From Chromera velia (lineage: Eukaryota > Sar > Chromeraceae): a stretch of DNA of 50,000 bases. Of the stretch, positions 5,408 through 16,860 are shown in pieces; positions within the stretch are counted from its first letter, which is position 1; each line of letters starts with the position of its first letter. The stretch spans positions 1 through 50,000 of the forward strand of contig JAHBMJ010005136.1 in NCBI GenBank assembly GCA_018398765.1, in the 5' to 3' direction. A program made the translations under genes and the position numbers. The notes beneath the pieces were generated by a model. That model did not search any database and had not been told where the DNA came from. It worked only from the letters and a program-made list of their open reading frames with translations.

Positions 5408-5589
5408 AAGCTGCCTCTTCGTTTGGAATCTTCCTATCGACCTGGGAGAGAACATTCATACATTTTCTTTCATACAGAATTCTTTTTACATTCATACATA
5501 CATACATACATACAAAGAATTCTGTATGAAAGAAAAAGCTGCCTTTTCGTTTGGAATCTTCCTGTCGACCTGGGAGAGACCATTCATAC
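5408..5589. repeat. Hairpin element locus A with 54-bp flanking direct repeats
   Basis: Two 54-bp copies of local sequence (5408-5461 and 5536-5589, three mismatches) flank a 74-bp AT-rich spacer at 5462-5535. The spacer is an inverted repeat: ATTTTCTTTCATACAGAATT on the left and AATTCTGTATGAAAGAAA on the right, around a (CATA)n loop. Read on the minus strand, the duplicated segment contains a good 3' splice site, TCTCTCCCAG|GTCGAC. The same hairpin core occurs at five other loci with unrelated flanking repeats. Confidence 0.85.
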
Positions 5590-5599
5590 AGGCAGATAA

Positions 5600-8320
5600 C
5601 ACACACAGTTCTGCAGGCGTGAGCCGAAAAACAGGGTACGATTCCCACACGCTCCCTCGGATTCATAGACGGACCTCCACGGCACAATGCATATGAAAGA
5701 AAATGCATGCGGATTCATAGACGGACCTCCACCGCACAATGCATGCATTTTCTTTCATACAGAATGCAAACGGATTCATAGACGGACCTCCACCGCACAA
5801 TGCATATGAAAGAAAATTCATGCGGATTCATAGACGGACCTCCACCGCACAATGCATGCATTTTCTTTCATACAGAATGCAAACGGATTCATAGACGGAC
5901 CTCCACCGCACAATGCATGCATTTTCTTTCATACAGAATGCAAACGGATTCATAGACGGACCTCCACCGCACAATGCATGCATTTTCTTTCATACAGAAT
6001 GCAAACGGATTCATAGACGGACCTCCACCGCACAATGCATGCATTTTCTTTCATACAGAATGCAAACGGATTCATAGACGGACCTCCACGGCACAATGCA
6101 TATGAAAGAAAATGCATGCGGATTCATAGACGGACCTCCACCGCACAAATATCCTCGCGAGGAGGGCTAGAAGACCCCAGCCCTCCAGCGTCTTCTCCCG
6201 TCCTCCCTCTAGCGTCCGATGCCAACGGCAAGGGGTGGGACAGATAGTCCTCAGGGGAAAGCGAGAAGGATCGCCCTCTTCCAACGTCAACGCGGGACAC
6301 ACGCAGCTTGTGCCCACCAGGCCCCCCTACAGAACTTCTGCTGGGATCCGAACCTTCAGACCCTTCCCCTCCTCCTTCAGGCTGCCTGACGATCCCTGCC
6401 TTGACCTGCTCCTCCACGCTCTCGTCTTCCTCCCCCCCTCCGGGAAGGAAGAAGGAGATGGAAGGTAGCTGTGCGTTCCCTTTTCCTTTGGAGCACTTGC
6501 AGAGGAGAACTCCCGCCAGGGGGTCGACCTGTTCGTCATTCATACATGTATGTGCATGCACATAGAAATCCATATGTGCTCAGATCTAAGCGTTTGTGTA
6601 TTTGAGTCATATATAAAGAAAAACACTACGAAGTGCCGCCAGAGAGTCGACCTTACACCTTTGAAGCAAACCATGGAAGGAAGGTATCTGTGCTGTATTC
6701 CGGGAACCGATGAAGGAACAATGTCTGTTCTGCTTCTTCACTCTTTGTCGAAAGAAAGCGGCATGGGCGGAGAGTGAACAGTGGGATTCGCAAAAGCTGG
6801 GAAGGCAGACAAACCGTCTCTTTATTCATTGGATAGTGAAGGCCTAGAGCCAAGCAGGCCCGCGGAGTGCAACAGAGAAAGGTGGACATACAGGCCGAAG
6901 GAATGGAGAAGGGAGAGAGAAAAAGCAACGGAAGAACAGAATACATACAGAGAGAGAAAGGCACACAGACAGACAGGAAGGCAGACGCCCACTCCGATCC
7001 CTGGAAGTGAGGCATTCCGTGTCCGTCGAAGAGAAGAAGAAAGCTGCAGTGAATGAACCATCCTCTCCCTGCCTGCCTGCCTGCAGACTGCAGACTGCCG
7101 ACTGACCCCGCAATCCCCGTGTGAGGTCCCACTCAGGAGGGCGTCCAGGAAGCTCTGCATGGATGGATGCATGGATGCATGATCAGGATGGATGCATGGA
7201 TGGATGCATGATCAGGATGGATGGATGGATGCATGATCAGGATGGATGGATGGATGCATGGGTGGATGGATGCGGGGGTGCAACAGAGAACAGAGGGTTG
7301 GGAAACACGGACAGGAACGTATCGTCAGGATTGTAGGAAGCTGGGGAGCGTGTCTTGAAGAACCACATCAGACAGGAAAATAGGGTCGGGAGGGAGCATG
7401 TGAAGTACGGAACTGGCAGGGTAAGAGCAGGATGGCTGGTTCATTCTTGCTGGCAATGAAGAAAATCAGAAACACGGAGAAACTCCGTCTGAGGAAAGGG
7501 AAAAAAAAAGAACACTTCCCGACAAAAAAAAGGGCAAGCCAAACAGACAAGAAAACATCGAGACAGATAGAAAGACAACATGCAATCACACCGACATCGC
7601 AGACAGGTTCAGGTACAGAAAGATAAGAGCTCCCGCTGTCGACGACCATCTCGAAGAACACCGGGCTGCTTGGAGGACCGCTGTGGGCCTCTTCTTCTTC
7701 TTCTACTCCGACCATCCTTGATGCCTGGTGCGCCAATTCGACAGGTTGAAACTCCCCCTGTCGTGGCTCCGGCACATCTCGAGTCGGGAGTGCCTCTTGA
7801 TTGGAAGAGAAGGGGGGCAAGCGAAATGGAGATCCCGGCACGGCCCCGTCCTGATCCCCCCCCGTCTCCGACGATTCCTGAAGGAAGTGAAGGAAGGAAC
7901 GAGGGCAAAGGTTTATGCAGTGGGCGCAGGGAAGCTGCAGGAGTTGAGGGAGAGATGCCCCTGGACGACCAAGAAACCCCAATTGGCGTGAAAGCCGGAA
8001 GGAAGATCTCTTGTTCCGCCCTCAACGGAAACAGACAGCATAAAGGAGGGGGGAGAGATTCCACACCATGCGATCCAAAACATCAATCAATGCGATTCTT
8101 TCTCCGACTGGTTCCTTCCATCTGCTGTTGTCACTTGAAGGAAACCGATGAGAAGAGAAGACACCTCATGCACATCAGATGCAAGGGCAAAATAAGTGAA
8201 CGACCTGTCAACGCTGCTGCATAAGAAAACGTCAGAACAATGTATTCTTTGGCACACACACGCACACATACACATACAGACTCACATACACATACACATA
8301 CACATACACAAACACAAACA

Positions 8321-8652: not shown

Positions 8653-10092
8653 CCTGCATAGACATATGAGAGAGCGCCCACATTGACATACCTGCTGTGC
8701 TGATGTTGCGAGTGCCGCTTGGCTTGGGCTGAGGACGGGAGCAAAGGGCTTCACCCTCTCTCTTCCCCCCCTTTCGTGAAACACAAAGGAGATGGACCCG
8801 GCAACCGACCACCAACTCTTCCTGCACCATTAAGGCAAAAACAGTCCAAGACAGAGTTATCACGGAATCCAACAAAAAGTCCCCTAATTTAGTGACCGAC
8901 GATTGGACCTTGGACAATTTGCGAGACCCAGTGCTGCAGAAGAGACGTTGTACATGGACAGCTGTAGGCACAGGGCATGCATTTTCTTTCATACATTTTC
9001 TTTCTAGTACAGAATATTCTAATACAGAAAAAGAATTCTGTATGAAAGAAAATGCATACGTTGTGCATGGACAGCTGTAGGCACAGAGACGAAGCGCGGC
9101 AGGAAGGGAAGGCCATGCAGGAGGAACACTCCCTCCACACGAAAGGAATCTAAAGGCAATCAAGGAAGGAAGGAAGCCTCCCTCCAGGAAGATCACTTAC
9201 AAAGGAGAAGAAAGGGCCATCCATCCGACAGAAAAGAAAAGAAACAGCGAATGAATTCATTGGAGGAAACTGCCACGGGAATAGAAGTAGCTAGGCGGGT
9301 GCATGGGTCTCTGGTTGGATGGATGGATGAAAAACCGGCAGGCCACCTTTTTCTTTGTTTGTTTGTCTCTCATTGTCAAGTCTAGCTGTTGGCTTGCGAG
9401 GTCCCTGCAGTCTGACTTCCTCTGGTTTAACTTTGAACGAAAGGGCAAAATGTGTTTTTGATTTCTCGCCCCCCTCTTCGTTAGAACAGAAAGGCAGATT
9501 TTTCCTCTCTCTTCTTGTTTGTTGAGCGGCTGGTGGTCACGAAAGATCTTGCGGGCCCCATGCAGAACGAAAGGAAACGATGGTGGAAGAAACGGGGCAT
9601 GCGGAAGAAACCGGAGGGACTACGGGAGGCCGAGGGGGGGGCAAACAAAACCGAATAAATAATCAACATGCATGTTTCTCTCATCTTCCGGAAGTCTTGG
9701 TCAGCTCTGGTAATCTGTTTTTTCATGAATGAATGACAGACAGCCAGCCGGCTGACCTGACCACAGGTGTCCACGTGACTTCTCCTTCTCTCCCCCCTTT
9801 CCCAGTTGGTCCAAAAGAAAGGGAGGAGGGAAGCCCAGTAGCACGCAAGTCCATGCTAAATGAGGCTCTAGAGAGACTGCCGTCCTGGAAAAGACGCACC
9901 ACAGGCGGAGTGCCAACATGGGCAATGGAGGGCCACGCAAGCCCGAGGACACCGTCGAACCTTGTGCCTGCAGGCAAAATGTTGGGAGGTAAAGGAGAGA
10001 GAAGGGGTCGGGTGTGCCCATACTGTGTCTACATGCATGTCCTGTGCATGGGTGATGCTGTGTATGCACTTACTGTGGTTTCATCACTTCAC

Positions 10093-10140
<48 letters not shown>

Positions 10141-13100
10141 ATGTGTGTGTGTGTGTGTAAGTGAGGGAAGGAGGGAAGGAAGAAAAAAAGGTGATGGGGG
10201 ATGAGGTCCCGATGCGACTATCACTGGACTCTGATGGAGTCTACACACACAATGAGAGAGAGAGAAAAACAGAAAGAAAGCAGACGGACCCTCAAATTGC
10301 GTTTCCTCATCCACCAGAAGGAAGTCCTGTCTGCTTGCCCTCAGCGTTCCCTCCGTTTTCTTTTCCTTCCCTTCTACTTGGAGGGTCAGTCTGTCCTCAC
10401 ACACAGTCCCCTCCACCCGTCCCTTCCCATAGAAGAGCGCCTCCCTCCTTCCCCCCCCCCCNCCCCGATCCTCCCTCTCCTGAGGGAAAGAGATCTCTGA
10501 GCATCCAGTCCATCCCAGAGGAACTGGGGGGAGACCCTCCGTGGACCTCTTGGAATGAAGAGGACTGGCTGCAGGCAGGAAGGAAAAAAGAAAGAAACAC
10601 AGACAGAAGCCAGATAGCCCCCCTCAGCTGCGTTCTCGTTCTCTTCTCTTGTGCGCCTCCCCAGACAAACAAAAGAAAAGAAAAGAAACCTCTGCAGGGG
10701 CTGCAAAAGCGAAGACAGACAGATTGTTTGTCACGAGGAAACTCAGAGTCGAGAGAGCGTGCAACTACCAGCCTCACATCAGAGCGTTGGAAGGAAAGGA
10801 GACAAAGGGGAGACAACGATTGGAAGGAATACCTCCAAACGAATTTGCTGTGACAACTTAGTTGTCTCTGAGTGAGGCACACTCACGCGACACACCCTCA
10901 GGGACAGAACTTCAGAGACAGAGACAGAGACGGAGACAAAAAGACACCCATAAAAAAGAAGGCTAAGCACACAAACAAACAAATACGCAAACCAACCAAC
11001 CTGGAGTCAAACCGGTTGGGTGCGGGACACAAACAAATACGCAAACCAACCAACCTGGAGTCAAAACGGTTGGGTGCGGGACACAAACAAATACGCAAAC
11101 CAACCAACCTGGAGTCAAACCGGTTGGGTGCGGGACACAAACAAATACGCAAACCAACCAACCTGGAGTCAAAACGGTTGGGTGCGGGACATCCGAGGCA
11201 GTGAGGGGCAGGAACCCAGAGGTCCGAAGAACCTGCAGATTTGCGTGCATGTATGTTTATTCTTATGTATGTTTATTCTGCATGAAAGAATTCTGTATGA
11301 AAATAAATGCATAAAATAAACGAGGGGCAGGGACCCAGAGGTCCGAAGAACCTGCAGATTTGCGTGCATGTATGTTTATTCTTATGTATGTTTATTCTGT
11401 ATGAAAGAATTCTGTATGAAAATAAATGCATAAAATAAACGAGGGGCAGGGACCCAGAGGTCCGAAGAACCTGCAGATTTGCGTGCATGTATGTTTATTC
11501 TTATGTATGTTTATTCTGTATGAAAGAATTCTGTATGAAAATAAATGCATAAAATAAACGAGGGGCAGGGACCCAGAGGTCCGAAGAACCTGCAGATTTG
11601 CGTGCATGTATGTTTATTCTTATGTATGTTTATTCTGTATGAAAGAATTCTGTATGAAAATAAATGCATAAAATAAACGAGGGGCAGAGACCCAGAGGTC
11701 CGAAGAACCTGCAGATTTGCGTGCATGTATGTTTATTCTTATGTATGTTTATTCTGTATGAACGAATTCTGTATGAAAATAAATGCATAAAATAAACGAG
11801 GGGCAGGGACCCAGAGGTCCGAAGAACCTGCAGATTTGCGTGCATGTATGTTTATTCTTATGTATGTTTATTCTGTATGAAAGAATTCTGTATGAAAATA
11901 AATGCATAAAATAAACGAGGGGCAGGGACCCAGAGGTCCGAAGAACCTGCAGATTTGCGTGCATGTATGTTTATTCTTATGTATGTTTATTCTGTATGAA
12001 AGAATTCTGTATGAAAATAAATGCATAAAATAAACGAGGGGCAGGGACCCAGAGGTCCGAAGAACCTGCAGATTTGCGTGCATGTATGTTTATTCTTATG
12101 TATGTTTATTCTGTATGAAAGAATTCTGTATGAAAATAAATGCATAAAATAAACGAGGGGCAGGGACCCAGAGGTCCGAAGAACCTGCAGATTTGCGTGC
12201 ATGTATGTTTATTCTTATGTATGTTTATTCTGTATGAAAGAATTCTGTATGAAAATAAATGCATAAAATAAACGAGGGGCAGGGACCCAGAGGTCCGAAG
12301 AACCTGCAGATTTGCGTGCATGTATGTTTATTCTTATGTATGTTTATTCTGTATGAAAGAATTCTGTATGAAAATAAATGCATAAAATAAACGAGGGGCA
12401 GGGACCCAGAGGTCCGAAGAACCTGCAGATTTGCGTGCATGTATGTTTATTCTTATGTATGTTTATTCTGTATGAAAGAATTCTGTATGAAAATAAATGC
12501 ATAAAATAAACGAGGGGCAGGGACCCAGAGGTCCGAAGAACCTGCAGATTTGCGTGCATGTATGTTTATTCTTATGTATGTTTATTCTGTATGAAAGAAT
12601 TCTGTATGAAAATAAATGCATAAAATAAACGAGGGGCAGGGACCCAGAGGTCCGAAGAACCTGCAGATTTGCGTGCATGTATGTTTATTCTTATGTATGT
12701 TTATTCTGTATGAAAGAATTCTGTATGAAAATAAATGCATAAAATAAACGAGGGGCAGGGACCCAGAGGTCCGAAGAACCTGCAGATTTGCGTGCATGTA
12801 TGTTTATTCTTATGTATGTTTATTCTGTATGAAAGAATTCTGTATGAAAATAAATGCATAAAATAAACGAGGGGCAGGGACCCAGAGGTCCGAAGAACCT
12901 GCAGATTTGCGTGCATGTATGTTTATTCTTATGTATGTTTATTCTGTATGAAAGAATTCTGTATGAAAATAAATGCATAAAATAAACGAGGGGCAGGGAC
13001 CCAGAGGTCCGAAGAACCTGCAGNCCTGGAGTCAAACCGGTTGGGTGCGGGACACAAACAAATACGCAAACCAACCAACCTGGAGTCAAACCGGTTGGGT

Positions 13101-16004
13101 GCGGGACACAAACAAATACGCAAACCAACCAACCTGGAGTCAAACCGGTTGGGTGCGGGACACAAACAAATACGCAAACCAACCAACCTGGAGTCAAACC
13201 GGTTGGGTGCGGGACACAAACAAATACGCAAACCAACCAACCTGGAGTCAAACCGGTTGGGTGCGGGACACAAACAAATACGCAAACCAACCAACCTGGA
13301 GTCAAACCGGTTGGGTGCGGGACACAAACAAATACGCAAACCAACCAACCTGGAGTCAAACCGGTTGGGTGCGGGACACAAACAAATACGCAAACCAACC
13401 AACCTGGAGTCAAACCGGTTGGGTGCGGGACACAAACAAATACGCAAACCAACCAACCTGGAGTCAAACCGGTTGGGTGCGGGACACAAACAAATACGCA
13501 AACCAACCAACCTGGAGTCAAAACGGTTGGGTGCGGGACATCCGAGGCAGTGAGGGGCAGGAACCCAGAGGTCCGAAGAACCTGCAGATTTGCGTGCATG
13601 TATGTTTATTCTTATGTATGTTTATTCTGTATGAAAGAATTCTGTATGAAAATAAATGCATAAAATAAACGAGGGGCAGGGACCCAGAGGTCCGAAGAAC
13701 CTGCAGATTTGCGTGCATGTATGTTTATTCTTATGTATGTTTATTCTGTATGAAAGAATTCTGTATGAAAATAAATGCATAAAATAAACGAGGGGCAGGG
13801 ACCCAGAGGTCCGAAGAACCTGCAGATTTGCGTGCATGTATGTTTATTCTTATGTATGTTTATTCTGTATGAAAGAATTCTGTATGAAAATAAATGCATA
13901 AAATAAACGAGGGGCAGGGACCCAGAGGTCCGAAGAACCTGCAGATTTGCGTGCATGTATGTTTATTCTTGTGTATGTTTATTCTGTATGAAAGAATTCT
14001 GTATGAAAATAAATGCATAAAATAAACGAGGGACAGAGACCCAGAGGTCCGAAGAACCTGCAGATTTGCGTGCATGTATGTTTATTCTTATGTATGTTTA
14101 TTCTGCATGAAAGAATTCTGTATGAAAATAAATGCATAAAATAAACGAGGGGCAGGGACCCAGAGGTCCGAAGAACCTGCAGATTTGCGTGCATGTATGT
14201 TTATTCTTATGTATGTTTATTCTGTATGAAAGAATTCTGTATGAAAATAAATGCATAAAATAAACGAGGGGCAGGGACCCAGAGGTCCGAAGAACCTGCA
14301 GATTTGCGTGCATGTATGTTTATTCTTATGTATGTTTATTCTGTATGAACGAATTCTGTATGAAAATAAATGCATAAAATAAACGAGGGGCAGAGACCCA
14401 GAGGTCCGAAGAACCTGCAGATTTGCGTGCATGTATGTTTATTCTTATGTATGTTTATTCTGTATGAAAGAATTCTGTATGAAAATAAATGCATAAAATA
14501 AACGAGGGGCAGGGACCCAGAGGTCCGAAGAATCTGCAGATTTGCGTGCATGTATGTTTATTCTTATGTATGTTTATTCTGTATGAAAGAATTCTGTATG
14601 AAAATAAATGCATAAAATAAACGAGGGGCAGGGACCCAGAGGTCCGAAGAACCTGCAGAGAGAAAAAAGCGCAGTGCAGTGCAAAGAGAACAGCAGTGAT
14701 TGGATCCTTCAATCTGTACGTAGAGGTTCTCCCTCCGTACTCTTTCATCTCACTTGTTTCCCCCCGTCCTTCGTCCTCACCTCAGGCTGTCATGTCCGTC
14801 AGCATTTTCTGTATTAATATGTATTTTTTCTGTATGTATTGTATGTAATGTGTATTAATAAGAATTCTGTATGAAAGAAAATGCACGTCCTCACCTCAGG
14901 CTGTCATGTCCGTCAGGCATGCACGCACTTAATTCCCTTAATTCTTCATTCCACCCCCATGCCCTCCTCTCCCGACTCTTCTCATGCAGGGATCAGTGCA
15001 TGCATTTTCTTTCATACAGAATTCTTATTAATACATATTACATACAATACATACAGAATTAATACATATTAATACAGAAAAAGAAAATGCCCTCCTCTCC
15101 CGACTCCTCCCATGCAGGGATCAGATGGGTCGGGAGGGCAAAACGCACAGGCTGGGAGGCAAGCACGCAACAAAGGAAGGCGAAAAAGAAAATATATGGG
15201 TAGGTAGGTAGGGAGGCAGACAAGCAGGCGAACAGACAGGCAGATAGGCAGATATATACGCAGGTAGACAAGCAGGCAAACAGGCAGGTAGGCAGTCAGC
15301 TAGGCAGACACAAAAAAGCAGGCAAGAAACCAAGCAAGGACGCAATCACGAAGGAAGGGCGAGCAGGTAGGTATTGACGACATGTATCATTCTCCGACTG
15401 CTTCTGTGTCTGTGCTGGTGTAAGGCAGGTAGGCAGACAAGCGTCCAGCAGGCATGATGGTCTCTTACACAGTTGAAAGAATGTATGAATAAGAAGGACC
15501 AGGTCCCCTCACCTCACCTGTGTCAAAGACGACGTTCAGGTTTTGGGGAGGGGCTCCCAATCCGATTCTTCCGTACTGCAGACAAATTTCCCGTGTGGAG
15601 TTTCTCTATCTATGTGTGTGGATATACCAAGCTGCACATTCCGTACTGCAAGCACCAGCGCGAGTCAGAGTGAGACACAGTGGAGGAGACGGGAAGAACA
15701 GATGGTGCATAAACAAATTTCTTTCTTGTGCTTGAAATTTTTGATTGCTCGACCAAAAGAGAGACCCACGTACGTATTGCACATTGTCCCTGTCCACAAG
15801 CGCAACAACAGATCCCCCTCTGGAACTCAGAGACAAGGCAGAGGCAGGCAGAATGTCGCCCTGTCTTCGAAGCTGTTTCTGCACCCGCTGCAAATTCACA
15901 AGCATGCCGTCTCCTCCGCTTTGTGCGTTGCCAGCAGGCGTGCCTCTGGTTGGACGCAAAGCAGAAGAGGCAGCCACTACCCATACAACTCTAGCAATGT
16001 GCAT
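5600..16004 (-). CDS. Pepsin-family (A1) aspartic protease, multi-exon
   Basis: Endopeptidase with two catalytic aspartates, probably secretory. Exons recovered in order: 16004-15774 (MHIARVVWVVAA signal-like start, ends DNVQY); 15575-15518 (YGRIGLGAPPQ, NVVFDT+G); 11232-11163 (SSDLWVPAPHC, NRFDS); 10568-10290 (SQSSSFQEV, an N gap, then FYGKGRVEGT, QDFLLVDEET); 9967 to about 9850 (FDGVLGLAWPS, GTPPVV); about 9149-8897 (LSCGG, HWVSQIV); 7877 to about 7600 (VVDSGSS, second Asp); 6528 to about 6200 (LPSISFFL, SPEDYL). Phases match at the first four joins (0, 1, 2, 1). The family normally has about 330-400 mature residues, and this fits. The C-terminal end (near 6140 and 5650, RWRSVYES, RERVGIVPC) changes frame and is unresolved. 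Introns are long and repeat-filled. The family is certain; exact borders of the later exons are not. Confidence 0.85.
5657..6147. repeat. Hairpin element locus B: nine copies of an exon piece
   Basis: The segment CGGATTCATAGACGGACC and the following TCCACCGCACAATGCAT occur nine times at about 5657, 5710, 5771, 5823, 5884, 5945, 6006, 6067 and 6119. Copies are separated by short spacers in either orientation of the same core: TGCATTTTCTTTCATACAGA or ATATGAAAGAAAATGCATG. On the minus strand the repeated host piece reads RWRSVYES, which fits the position of the last strand of a pepsin C-lobe. The first and last copies connect to unique sequence on either side, so the units look inserted into or beside a protease exon. 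Confidence 0.8.
6638..6664 (-). pseudogene. Degenerate copy of a protease exon start
   Basis: On the minus strand AAGGTCGACTCTCTGGCGG here mirrors the true exon start CAG|GTCGACCCCCTGGCGGG at 6530-6514. It lies about 120 bp upstream in gene sense. It has lost the CAG acceptor (AAG) and decays quickly on both sides. It is best read as a remnant of an earlier exon-edge duplication. Confidence 0.45.
7146..7272. repeat. GGAT/GCAT minisatellite
   Basis: Repeats of GATGGATGCATGATCAGGAT in about four imperfect units, with internal GGAT and GCAT runs. It falls inside the protease gene, in an intron by my exon model. Confidence 0.85.
8238..8650. repeat. Compound CA/CACACG/GACACGCACA microsatellite in a protease intron
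   Basis: CA runs, then (CACACG)n with one CACATTCACACG interruption near 8425, then about nine GACACGCACA units at 8500-8580, then CA again. Because the host gene is on the minus strand, the transcript reads TG-rich. A repeat of the same design lies at 30515-30866 in another gene's intron. Long frames through it (poly CV, HT or RT) are not genes. Confidence 0.95.
8945..9086. repeat. Hairpin element locus C inside or beside a protease exon
   Basis: A 29-bp direct repeat (8945-8973 and 9058-9086, one mismatch) flanks an 84-bp hairpin spacer, with GCATGCATTTTCTTTCATAC on the left and GTATGAAAGAAAATGCAT on the right. In gene sense the duplicated part reads CTGTGCCTACAG|CTGTCCATG, a plausible acceptor with exon start. 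Ignoring the spacer, the frame runs on from LSCGGSVPPAW to QHWVSQIV, as a pepsin would require. Confidence 0.85.
10097..10158. repeat. (CT)n(GT)n microsatellite
   Basis: About 13 CT units followed by GT units with ATG interruptions, in the protease intron between the FYGKG and FDGVLGL exons. Confidence 0.9.
10971..11162. repeat. 54-bp array I: repeated donor half of the catalytic exon
   Basis: A 54-bp unit whose CCTGGAGTC anchor recurs at about 10999, 11053 and 11107, with the full exon's own copy at 11161. On the minus strand each unit carries TGTCCCGCACCCAACCG, then TTTGACTCCAG|GTTGG. That is the last 29 nt of the DTGSSDLWVP exon plus its donor and the first 25 nt of intron. Units alternate AACCGGTTT and AACCGTTTT. 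Confidence 0.95.
11163..11232 (-). CDS. Catalytic exon of the aspartic protease, full copy 1
   Basis: This 70-nt exon begins after CTGCAG at 11233 and ends at CTCCAG|GTTGGT. It enters in phase 1, so the G left by the previous exon makes DT-GSSDLWVP, the first active site. It then reads APHCLGCPAPNRFDS and leaves in phase 2, which the next exon completes as S-QSSSF. This matches the pepsin run from the catalytic DTGSS through two cysteines to the RF motif. The local acceptor lacks a pyrimidine tract (GCACGCAAATCTGCAG), because the sequence before it is the hairpin unit. A second full copy is at 13512-13581. Confidence 0.85.
11203..13023. repeat. 119-bp array I: repeated acceptor half of the catalytic exon plus hairpin
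   Basis: Fifteen units of exactly 119 bp, then a partial one stopping at the N at 13024. Each has about 36 bp of exon edge (minus strand CTGCAG|GTTCTTCGGACC, then TCTGGGTCCCTGCCCCTCG) and about 83 bp of AT-rich hairpin with TTCTGTATGAAAGAATTC and GTATGTTTATTC. Units are nearly identical. Rare variants (GCATGAAAG, GAACGAATT, CAGAGACC) recur in array II, so the arrays share history. 119 is not a multiple of three; the many 71-codon frames are repeat artefacts. Confidence 0.97.
13024..13024. other. Assembly gap joining two repeat arrays
   Basis: A single N fuses a truncated 119-bp unit (ending CTGCAG) directly to a truncated 54-bp unit. Because it sits exactly between two high-identity arrays, true copy number and true order cannot be trusted here. 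Confidence 0.9.
13025..13511. repeat. 54-bp array II: repeated donor half of the catalytic exon
   Basis: Ten evenly spaced 54-bp anchors (13025 to 13511, the last in the full exon copy 2). The first is cut by the N at 13024. All units except the exon itself carry the AACCGG variant, so this array is more homogeneous than array I. The 18-residue periodic frames through it on both strands are not genes. Confidence 0.95.
13512..13581 (-). CDS. Catalytic exon of the aspartic protease, full copy 2
   Basis: Same 70-nt sequence, phases and splice ends as the copy at 11163-11232, again lying between a 54-bp array (lower coordinates) and a 119-bp array (higher coordinates). Only one copy can be used in a single transcript, since joining both would break the phase (phase-2 exit into a phase-1 entry). 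It could be a mutually exclusive duplicate or an assembly duplicate. Confidence 0.7.
13552..14658. repeat. 119-bp array II: repeated acceptor half of the catalytic exon plus hairpin
   Basis: Nine full 119-bp units and a final 36-bp exon edge at 14623-14658. The outermost acceptor on the minus strand, GCGCTTTTTTCTCTCTGCAG|GTT, is the only one with a strong pyrimidine tract, so it is probably the ancestral splice site. Reading in from it gives GSSDLWVPAP, then hairpin sequence and a stop. Unit variants include CTTGTGTATG, GCATGAAAG, GAACGAATT and AATCTGCAG. Confidence 0.97.
14772..14916. repeat. Hairpin element locus D
   Basis: A perfect 31-bp direct repeat (14772-14802 and 14886-14916, CGTCCTCACCTCAGGCTGTC and on) flanks an 83-bp AT-rich spacer. 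The spacer ends AGAATTCTGTATGAAAGAAA, the shared core. Location is the long protease intron 2. Confidence 0.85.
14959..15124. repeat. Hairpin element locus E
   Basis: A 38-bp direct repeat (14959-14996 and 15087-15124, two mismatches, ATGCCCTCCTCTCCCGACTC and on) flanks a 90-bp spacer. The spacer begins TGCATGCATTTTCTTTCATA, opposite in orientation to locus D only 40 bp away. Confidence 0.85.
15190..15360. repeat. GGCA/GGTA/GACA degenerate tetranucleotide repeat
   Basis: Irregular run of AGGTAGGT, GCAGACAAGCAGGC and related words, in protease intron 2. Confidence 0.7.
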
Positions 16005-16261
16005 ATTGAACGTCGCTCTTCGGTCTCTCTCTGCAGGTAAGACACGCTATCGCGCTGGAGGCCCCCACGCAATGATCGAGCCCAGCTGGATGGATCCACG
16101 TAGACGGGTCAAGTTCAGTTGAATCCAATGTGACTTGTGACAGGAAGAAGTACGGTGCCTACGGAGCGCTTTTCAGGAGCTTGGACGGATTTATCCCAGA
16201 GATGATGTGCCCTGCCATATGCATCTATATTTACCGCTGATTACCTCGCGTACCTCGCTGA

Positions 16262-16288
16262 TATTGCCGTGGCCCCGAGCCACGGTAT
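16262..16288. other. Small inverted repeat upstream of the protease
   Basis: GCCGTGGC and GCCACGGT pair around CCCGA, about 260 bp upstream of the protease start. It could be a transcription or RNA structure signal; function unknown. Confidence 0.35.
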
Positions 16289-16860
16289 CTGTGCCGAAAG
16301 GAAAAAAGTAAAGGTGAGCCCCGCCCCCTACACCGAATTTCGCACGCGCGCGCCACTTACTTACTTCCCCACATTTCGGGTCGCAAACGCCTTACAGGAC
16401 CGCGCAGTAAAAATTTTTCGATGATTGAATTCGACCGCCTAGCTCTGAGGTCTGAATTCTTGTTGATTGAGGTTTTTGTTATGCATGCCGCGTCCCCGTG
16501 TATGAAGGGCGGATCTAGCCTAGTCTGTCAAAAGGTTCCGGTTCGTCCCGTCTGTTCTAAATCTAGGAACACTGCTCATTGATCACTTTTACTGCGGCTT
16601 ATTTCTCATGCGGCGGTAGAGTAGGACTCGGAGAACAATGAAAAGAGGGGAGAGACAGGGCAAAAACTTTCTAAAAGTTTGTCCCCTTGGCAAAGGCTAC
16701 CCTTTGACGGCGGAGAATAACTTCAAAGAGACCCTCCCCATTAATTTGCCCCTTATTTTCTCAACCTTCTTTTCTTCTTTTCTTTTCATACGTTTACTCC
16801 CTTTTCTTTTTTTTTTTTCTTTCTTGTTTATATATAAAGAATCAATCATAAAAAGATCGC

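Follow-up and report, generated by a model that had tools for sequence, protein, structure and literature searches.

Arrays at both splice sites of a protease exon in Chromera velia: a probable origin in two separate duplications, one linked to a dispersed hairpin element

The window, a 50,000-nt stretch of Chromera velia DNA (GC 48.9%), carries on its minus strand a gene that is, as judged from its predicted protein, a pepsin-like aspartic protease of the A1 family. Specifically, the catalytic D-T/S-G motif stands in conserved context, a match to PF00026 lies at 9735-9965 (E 1.2e-5), and a second catalytic motif, VVDSGSSYLSVP, can be read by eye near 7640. The upstream exon (15518-15575, minus strand) encodes YGRIGLGAPPQNLNVVFDT(G), ends in DT(G) and has the donor CACAG-GTGAGG (hyphens within motifs mark splice junctions). 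The downstream exon starts at 10568 with (S)QSSSFQEVHGGSP behind the acceptor CTGCCTGCAG-C; it is followed here to 10526 on the minus strand. Between them, a 70-nt exon (GTTCTTCGG...GACTCCAG, minus strand) encodes the catalytic peptide SSDLWVPAPHCLGCPAPNRFDS. When the exon ending at 15518, the 70-nt exon and the exon starting at 10568 are joined, the resulting peptide aligns with cardosin B, cathepsin E and pepsin (best E 6.5e-13), and because this alignment crosses both junctions, both are well placed. An Rfam scan of 9000-16500 returned nothing at the gathering threshold. Elsewhere in the window, a 108-bp tandem repeat of 2.9 copies (306-614) contains the acceptor-like site TTTCTCTCAG-GTTGCG, and open reading frames on the minus strand between 17000 and 19500 appear reverse-transcriptase-like by eye. 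Genome-wide counts in this study refer to 178 Mb of assembly, in which the light-harvesting family PF00504 has 58 matches.

Around each full copy of the 70-nt exon, an array of 54-bp units lies at the low-coordinate side and an array of 119-bp units at the high-coordinate side. On the minus strand between 10975 and 14659, the layout comprises four 54-bp units (10975-11191), in frame and stop-free; a full exon (11163-11232); 15.3 units of 119 bp (11203-13023), which carry the element subfamily end GCATTTATTTTCATACAGAATTC; a single N at 13024, an assembly gap that separates two blocks; 9.6 units of 54 bp (13025-13540) with the donor CCAG-GTTGG; a second full exon (13512-13581); and 9.3 units of 119 bp (13552-14659), of which the outermost copy has a strong acceptor tract, TTTTTTCTCTCTGCAG, and the inner acceptors are weak. 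Each 54-bp unit takes in the last 28 nt of the exon and the first 26 nt of the intron, and each 119-bp unit consists of 36 bp of host sequence (the 6 intron nucleotides CTGCAG and the first 30 nt of the exon) followed by 83 bp of non-exon element sequence. With those of the full exons included, donor halves number 14 and acceptor halves 26. Both arrays are built head to tail from copies of a stretch that spans a splice junction, as expected of tandem genomic duplication, and a chance origin is not an issue, with the left 119-bp array alone reaching a TRF score of 3614. The earlier proposal, made from the sequence alone, that the two junctions of the catalytic exon were amplified separately and outward of an intact exon is borne out.

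That sequence-only reading had placed one exon between the arrays. The arrays are real, but the assembly shows two complete and identical 70-nt exons with the N between them, and this N makes copy number and the second block unreadable from the assembly. The doubling is probably an assembly artefact, in which one true block, a 54-bp array, exon and 119-bp array, was extended from both ends of the gap by short-read gap-filling; the exon would therefore be seen twice and the unit numbers would be arbitrary. In favor of this account, the N separates the blocks, the 185-bp stretches around the two full exons differ by a single base, and certain unit variants are common to both 119-bp arrays, in different order. 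The published assembly of Chromera velia CCMP2878 (193.66 Mb in 5953 scaffolds) is described as built with velvet at k-mer 71, plus GapFiller and IMAGE (PMC4501334), and if the strain sequenced here is CCMP2878, the k-mer used exceeds the 54-bp period. The artefact would, however, cover the doubling and not the arrays, which also occur at other loci of the element family, and the blocks do differ in variant order and in one base. A real second-order duplication of the whole block, with one exon usable per transcript, is a more doubtful account: in its favor, neighboring unit variants differ between the two exon contexts, but the gap sits exactly between the blocks, and both exons together (140 nt) would break the frame. 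Either account of the doubling is compatible with the explanation of the arrays preferred below.

The consequences for splicing differ between the two arrays. Translated without further splicing, all 24 acceptors that stand apart from the full exons lead to a stop after 48-50 residues of joined chain, so that the 119-bp array can yield a working protein only through use of an exon-attached acceptor. The polypyrimidine tract of the outermost acceptor has 16 pyrimidines in 18 positions and that of the exon-attached acceptors 9 in 18; with so weak a tract, correct splicing cannot be taken for granted, and the protease gene could be impaired. The 54-bp unit, in turn, amounts to 18 codons in an open frame, so that any donor within its array would preserve the frame, and since the array is stop-free as well, its exact removal is unnecessary. 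The claim that the gene can function only if splicing selects the one full exon thus holds for the 119-bp array and need not hold for the 54-bp array. The same features would be compatible with arrays that serve as functional alternative splice sites, the donors adding 18 in-frame residues per unit and the choice of acceptor acting as a switch via premature stops: the 54-bp array keeps the frame and is free of stops, and all 24 unattached acceptors do run to a stop. This role is nonetheless very unlikely, given that unit numbers are unreliable and that there is no sign of selection for it.

The arrays also differ in origin: part of the 119-bp unit is a copy of a dispersed hairpin element, and the 54-bp unit is confined to this locus. 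The intron part of the 54-bp unit has 13 exact matches in the genome search, all of them at this locus, and 4 near matches elsewhere, as compared to 10 for a reversed control. On these matches, the 54-bp unit is most simply a plain tandem duplication, specific to this locus, that covers the 5' splice site. The 119-bp unit, by contrast, combines a host repeat with the dispersed element, and the suggestion of a single process that amplified both borders in opposite directions is accordingly abandoned.

The dispersed element is roughly 30-110 bp long, and TGCATTTTCTTTCATACAGAATTC and TGCATTTACTTTCATACAGAATTC, sister sequences of GCATTTATTTTCATACAGAATTC, are its ends. TGCATTTTCTTTCATACAGAATTC has 663 genome-wide matches at no more than two mismatches, TGCATTTACTTTCATACAGAATTC included, against 0 for the reversed control; the sister end TGCATTTACTTTCATACAGAATTC has 98 exact matches in the genome, and the subfamily end GCATTTATTTTCATACAGAATTC of the 119-bp unit has 92, of which 24 are the window's own units. 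An exact 24-mer of the element end had no match in viral or prokaryotic contigs. Strong hairpins were found in three of the five copies folded (z -7.0, -9.3 and -11.6). Within the 119-bp unit, the 83-bp copy has degenerated and folds barely better than its shuffles (z -1.73), and one of the copies in intron 1 is degenerate as well. The family resembles MITEs in being short and without obvious coding capacity, in having terminal inverted repeats that form a hairpin (one not found in the copy of the 119-bp unit), in its many dispersed copies and in its flanking duplications. Known MITE superfamilies leave duplications of fixed length, about 2-11 bp. The flanking duplications here are instead variable, at 18-58 bp (n=81). 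A pair of element ends 2.9 kb apart on C1386 was considered as a candidate autonomous element and rejected, because the two ends, which were the parts read, belong to two separate small insertions.

Further copies of the element lie within the window. Intron 1 of the protease gene holds one copy at 14772-14916 with a 31-bp direct repeat (14772-14802 and 14886-14916) and a second at 14959-15124 with a 38-bp direct repeat that is 95% identical; neither is at an exon edge. The element sequences of these two copies, 14805-14885 and 15001-15081, are inverted relative to each other, with 96% complementarity across 81 nt, and each is bounded by a direct repeat of its own. Two minus-strand copies, at 5408-5590 and 8945-9086, have direct repeats of 55 bp and 29 bp, respectively, each with a putative acceptor-like site. 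A further minus-strand array in the same gene (5658-6101; TRF periods 61 and 113) joins the host piece GTGCGGTGGAG-GTCCGTC, in which a donor-like site was placed by eye, to the hairpin element end.

Direct repeats of host DNA around the element are usual in the family. Among the loci fetched, 82 of 98 separate element loci had such a flanking repeat at a score of at least 18, as opposed to 19 of 500 element-free points; 8 of the 16 loci missed hold at least two same-strand units, a configuration for which the test was not built. The repeats measure 18-58 bp with a median of 35 bp (81 sites), and their two copies have a mean identity of 97.9%, 40 of the 81 pairs being perfect. Four of the 85 sites, at which the repeat call entered element sequence, were left out of this set and kept in the splice-motif scoring. 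The base composition of the duplications, 51.6% GC, did not differ significantly from the 49.8% of their flanks (p 0.053). The two copies would have been made when the element inserted. One candidate for the origin of such duplications is offered by the small tandem duplications described at staggered breaks in the human genome (PMC8355091), which are likewise short and tandem; they differ, as far as described, in having no inserted element.

Arrays recur across the family. At least 12 loci among the matches listed hold three or more tandem units, 11 of them at constant spacing with units of 73, 81, 85, 85, 89, 97, 97, 99, 107, 119 and 120 bp and one further array with a unit of about 106-113 bp; certain array loci (L090, L093 and L094), none of them simple, were not scored as sites. 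Since at least 12 element loci are arrays, the 119-bp array is one case of a recurrent outcome. Related structures were seen in passing. A 102-bp array of 6.4 units at L047 (2320-2974) includes a diverged element copy, and at L091 (217-367) the element sits inside a 43-bp minisatellite, its flanking repeat corresponding approximately to one minisatellite unit. Tandem duplications without an element occur at L040 (888-1068, 96 bp) and L042 (1080-1285, 90 bp); their units contain an EGF-like acceptor-like site, and the two are junction duplications of another type, comparable to the 54-bp array.

The position of the repeats relative to exons was judged at sites anchored by Pfam, for which 70 open reading frames near sites were searched and 15 matched at E <= 0.01; L042, L031, L067 and L070, where the match was weak or far from the site, were left out of the judged set. 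At 10 of the 12 sites judged, three of these being less sure, the repeat lies across or at an exon edge, a fraction that may be lower in truth because the anchored sample favors sites near recognizable exons. The joined peptide runs unbroken over the junction at a dynein gene (L034, E 2.8e-24) and a superoxide dismutase gene (L061, E 2.9e-36), as it does at a PurM gene (L104, E 8.5e-12), which came from outside the Pfam route and has its repeat at the exon start. At L061, the repeat copy unattached to the exon is degenerate, as expected if the exon-attached copy is spliced. The domain match extends up to the repeat, with the edge given by a splice motif, at two EGF sites of L040, at L051 (FAD_binding_2), at L081 (ankyrin) and at L079 (Exo_endo_phos, a match below the Pfam curated cut-off). 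The less sure cases are a kinase (L058), frame-consistent with a joined peptide of 20 bits, below the Pfam cut-off; an ABC1 gene (L087), whose donor was placed by eye; and a WD40-like gene (L041, below the Pfam curated cut-off), in which sequence upstream of the repeat may be coding. The remaining two are not at an exon edge: the repeat of L033 lies within an intron, and no exon was recognized at that of L030. Edge cases judged by eye include L093, L095, L097, L098 and L100; for L098, the top PDB matches by E-value are repeat proteins, and the tRNA-synthetase matches are weak (E 0.0004-0.018).

The splice-motif statistics cover all scored sites. Repeats scored higher than 3400 control windows for both acceptors (p 2.8e-4) and donors (p 2.1e-4), and at the loosest threshold 41 of 85 sites were splice-like, as compared to 26% of control windows. 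AG-GT was enriched near the 3' end of the repeat, being present on 18 of 162 strands as compared to 5.4 (sd 2.3, maximum 13) over 68 shifts. CAG near the 5' start was not significantly enriched (37 against 29.5, sd 4.5), and ORF length across the rejoined empty site, taken as a possible sign of insertion into coding sequence, did not discriminate (490.5 against a control median of 486).

Among known systems, the element is close to introners, which are repeated elements, some with inverted repeats, whose splice sites can come from duplication, as outlined by Gozashti 2022 (PMC9860276). The families described earlier have, according to the same source, duplications of 3-9 bp, and for the introner elements of Amoebophrya, the direct repeats reported at exon-intron borders measure 3-5 nt (PMC7789003). 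Repeated elements and direct repeats at exon-intron borders are thus common to both, as far as these accounts go. If the present elements were introners, they would create new introns in continuous coding sequence via an AGGT within the duplication. Consistent with this, AGGT or ACCT occurs in 26 of 74 duplications as compared to 17.7% of 14800 control windows, AG-GT is contained in both the 119-bp and the 54-bp duplications, and L041 may be coding at both sides. At the protease exon, however, the outermost copy is preceded by a polypyrimidine tract and, before it, by the intron and the previous exon, and at L034 and L061 a distinct exon, ending in a donor of its own, lies upstream. The joined peptides indicate that the exon boundary already existed at all three. 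This is a further difference from introners as described in those sources: where the junction is confirmed, the duplication spans an existing junction, so that the element enlarges an intron and makes none. As an explanation, the introner reading is improbable, and new introns may still have arisen elsewhere in the element family.

For the 54-bp array, a close precedent exists in tandem duplications with AGGT that yield repeated splice sites, such as an intron in fission yeast that extends over four copies of a 24-bp segment with AGGT; the same paper describes duplicated intron-exon structure in potato. In those cases, as far as described there, a new intron arises, whereas here both junctions of an existing exon lie in arrays and one unit contains a mobile element. 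As to the earlier remark that no described mechanism is known to amplify the two borders of one exon in opposite directions, most of the locus is covered by described mechanisms, namely a target-site duplication or a tandem duplication that includes a splice junction, followed by repeat expansion. The parts thus have precedents, and such long and variable duplications around a hairpin element are what is unusual: a literature search that included Chromera recognized no described element with duplications of this length, and the main text of PMC4501334 makes no mention of MITE, TIR, DNA transposon or inverted repeat.

Taken together, the available data are best explained by a model, to which a probability of about 0.7 is assigned, in which the arrays are two separate small duplications over the splice sites of one exon, one of them left by the dispersed hairpin element, that subsequently expanded. 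Specifically, a MITE-like hairpin element would have inserted at the 3' splice site and left a 36-bp host duplication spanning the 3' junction. The two 36-bp copies, acting as direct repeats, would then have allowed slippage or unequal exchange to generate a series of units, each with 36 bp of host and 83 bp of element sequence. Expansion of the same kind would have acted on a plain tandem duplication of 54 bp at the 5' splice site. The element and all but one copy would become part of the intron, and the exon-attached copy would be the one spliced. The border of the outermost 119-bp copy, which stops exactly at the host piece and gives way to the strong polypyrimidine tract, fits this expectation, because the predicted order is left flank, X, element, X. 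It is further proposed that insertions at exon edges are tolerated because the long duplication carries the splice site along, and that the paired repeats would then seed arrays.

How the element integrates is a more speculative matter, for which staggered breaks with fill-in are one candidate route (PMC8355091). Tentatively, integration may follow a route not yet described, in which members of the family enter long staggered breaks at exon edges and leave duplications of variable length (18-58 bp) that copy the splice site. If this is true, insertion at an exon edge would be nearly harmless, and splice junctions would act as seeds of tandem arrays genome-wide.

If confirmed, the proposed origin of the arrays would provide a simple way for mobile elements to land on exon edges without destroying the gene, and it would illustrate both intron growth and the origin of arrays of competing splice sites. 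Insertions are found in genes of conserved families, namely superoxide dismutase, PurM, dynein heavy chain and an ABC1 kinase-like protein, and because such genes carry them, how the spliceosome chooses the right copy would become directly testable.
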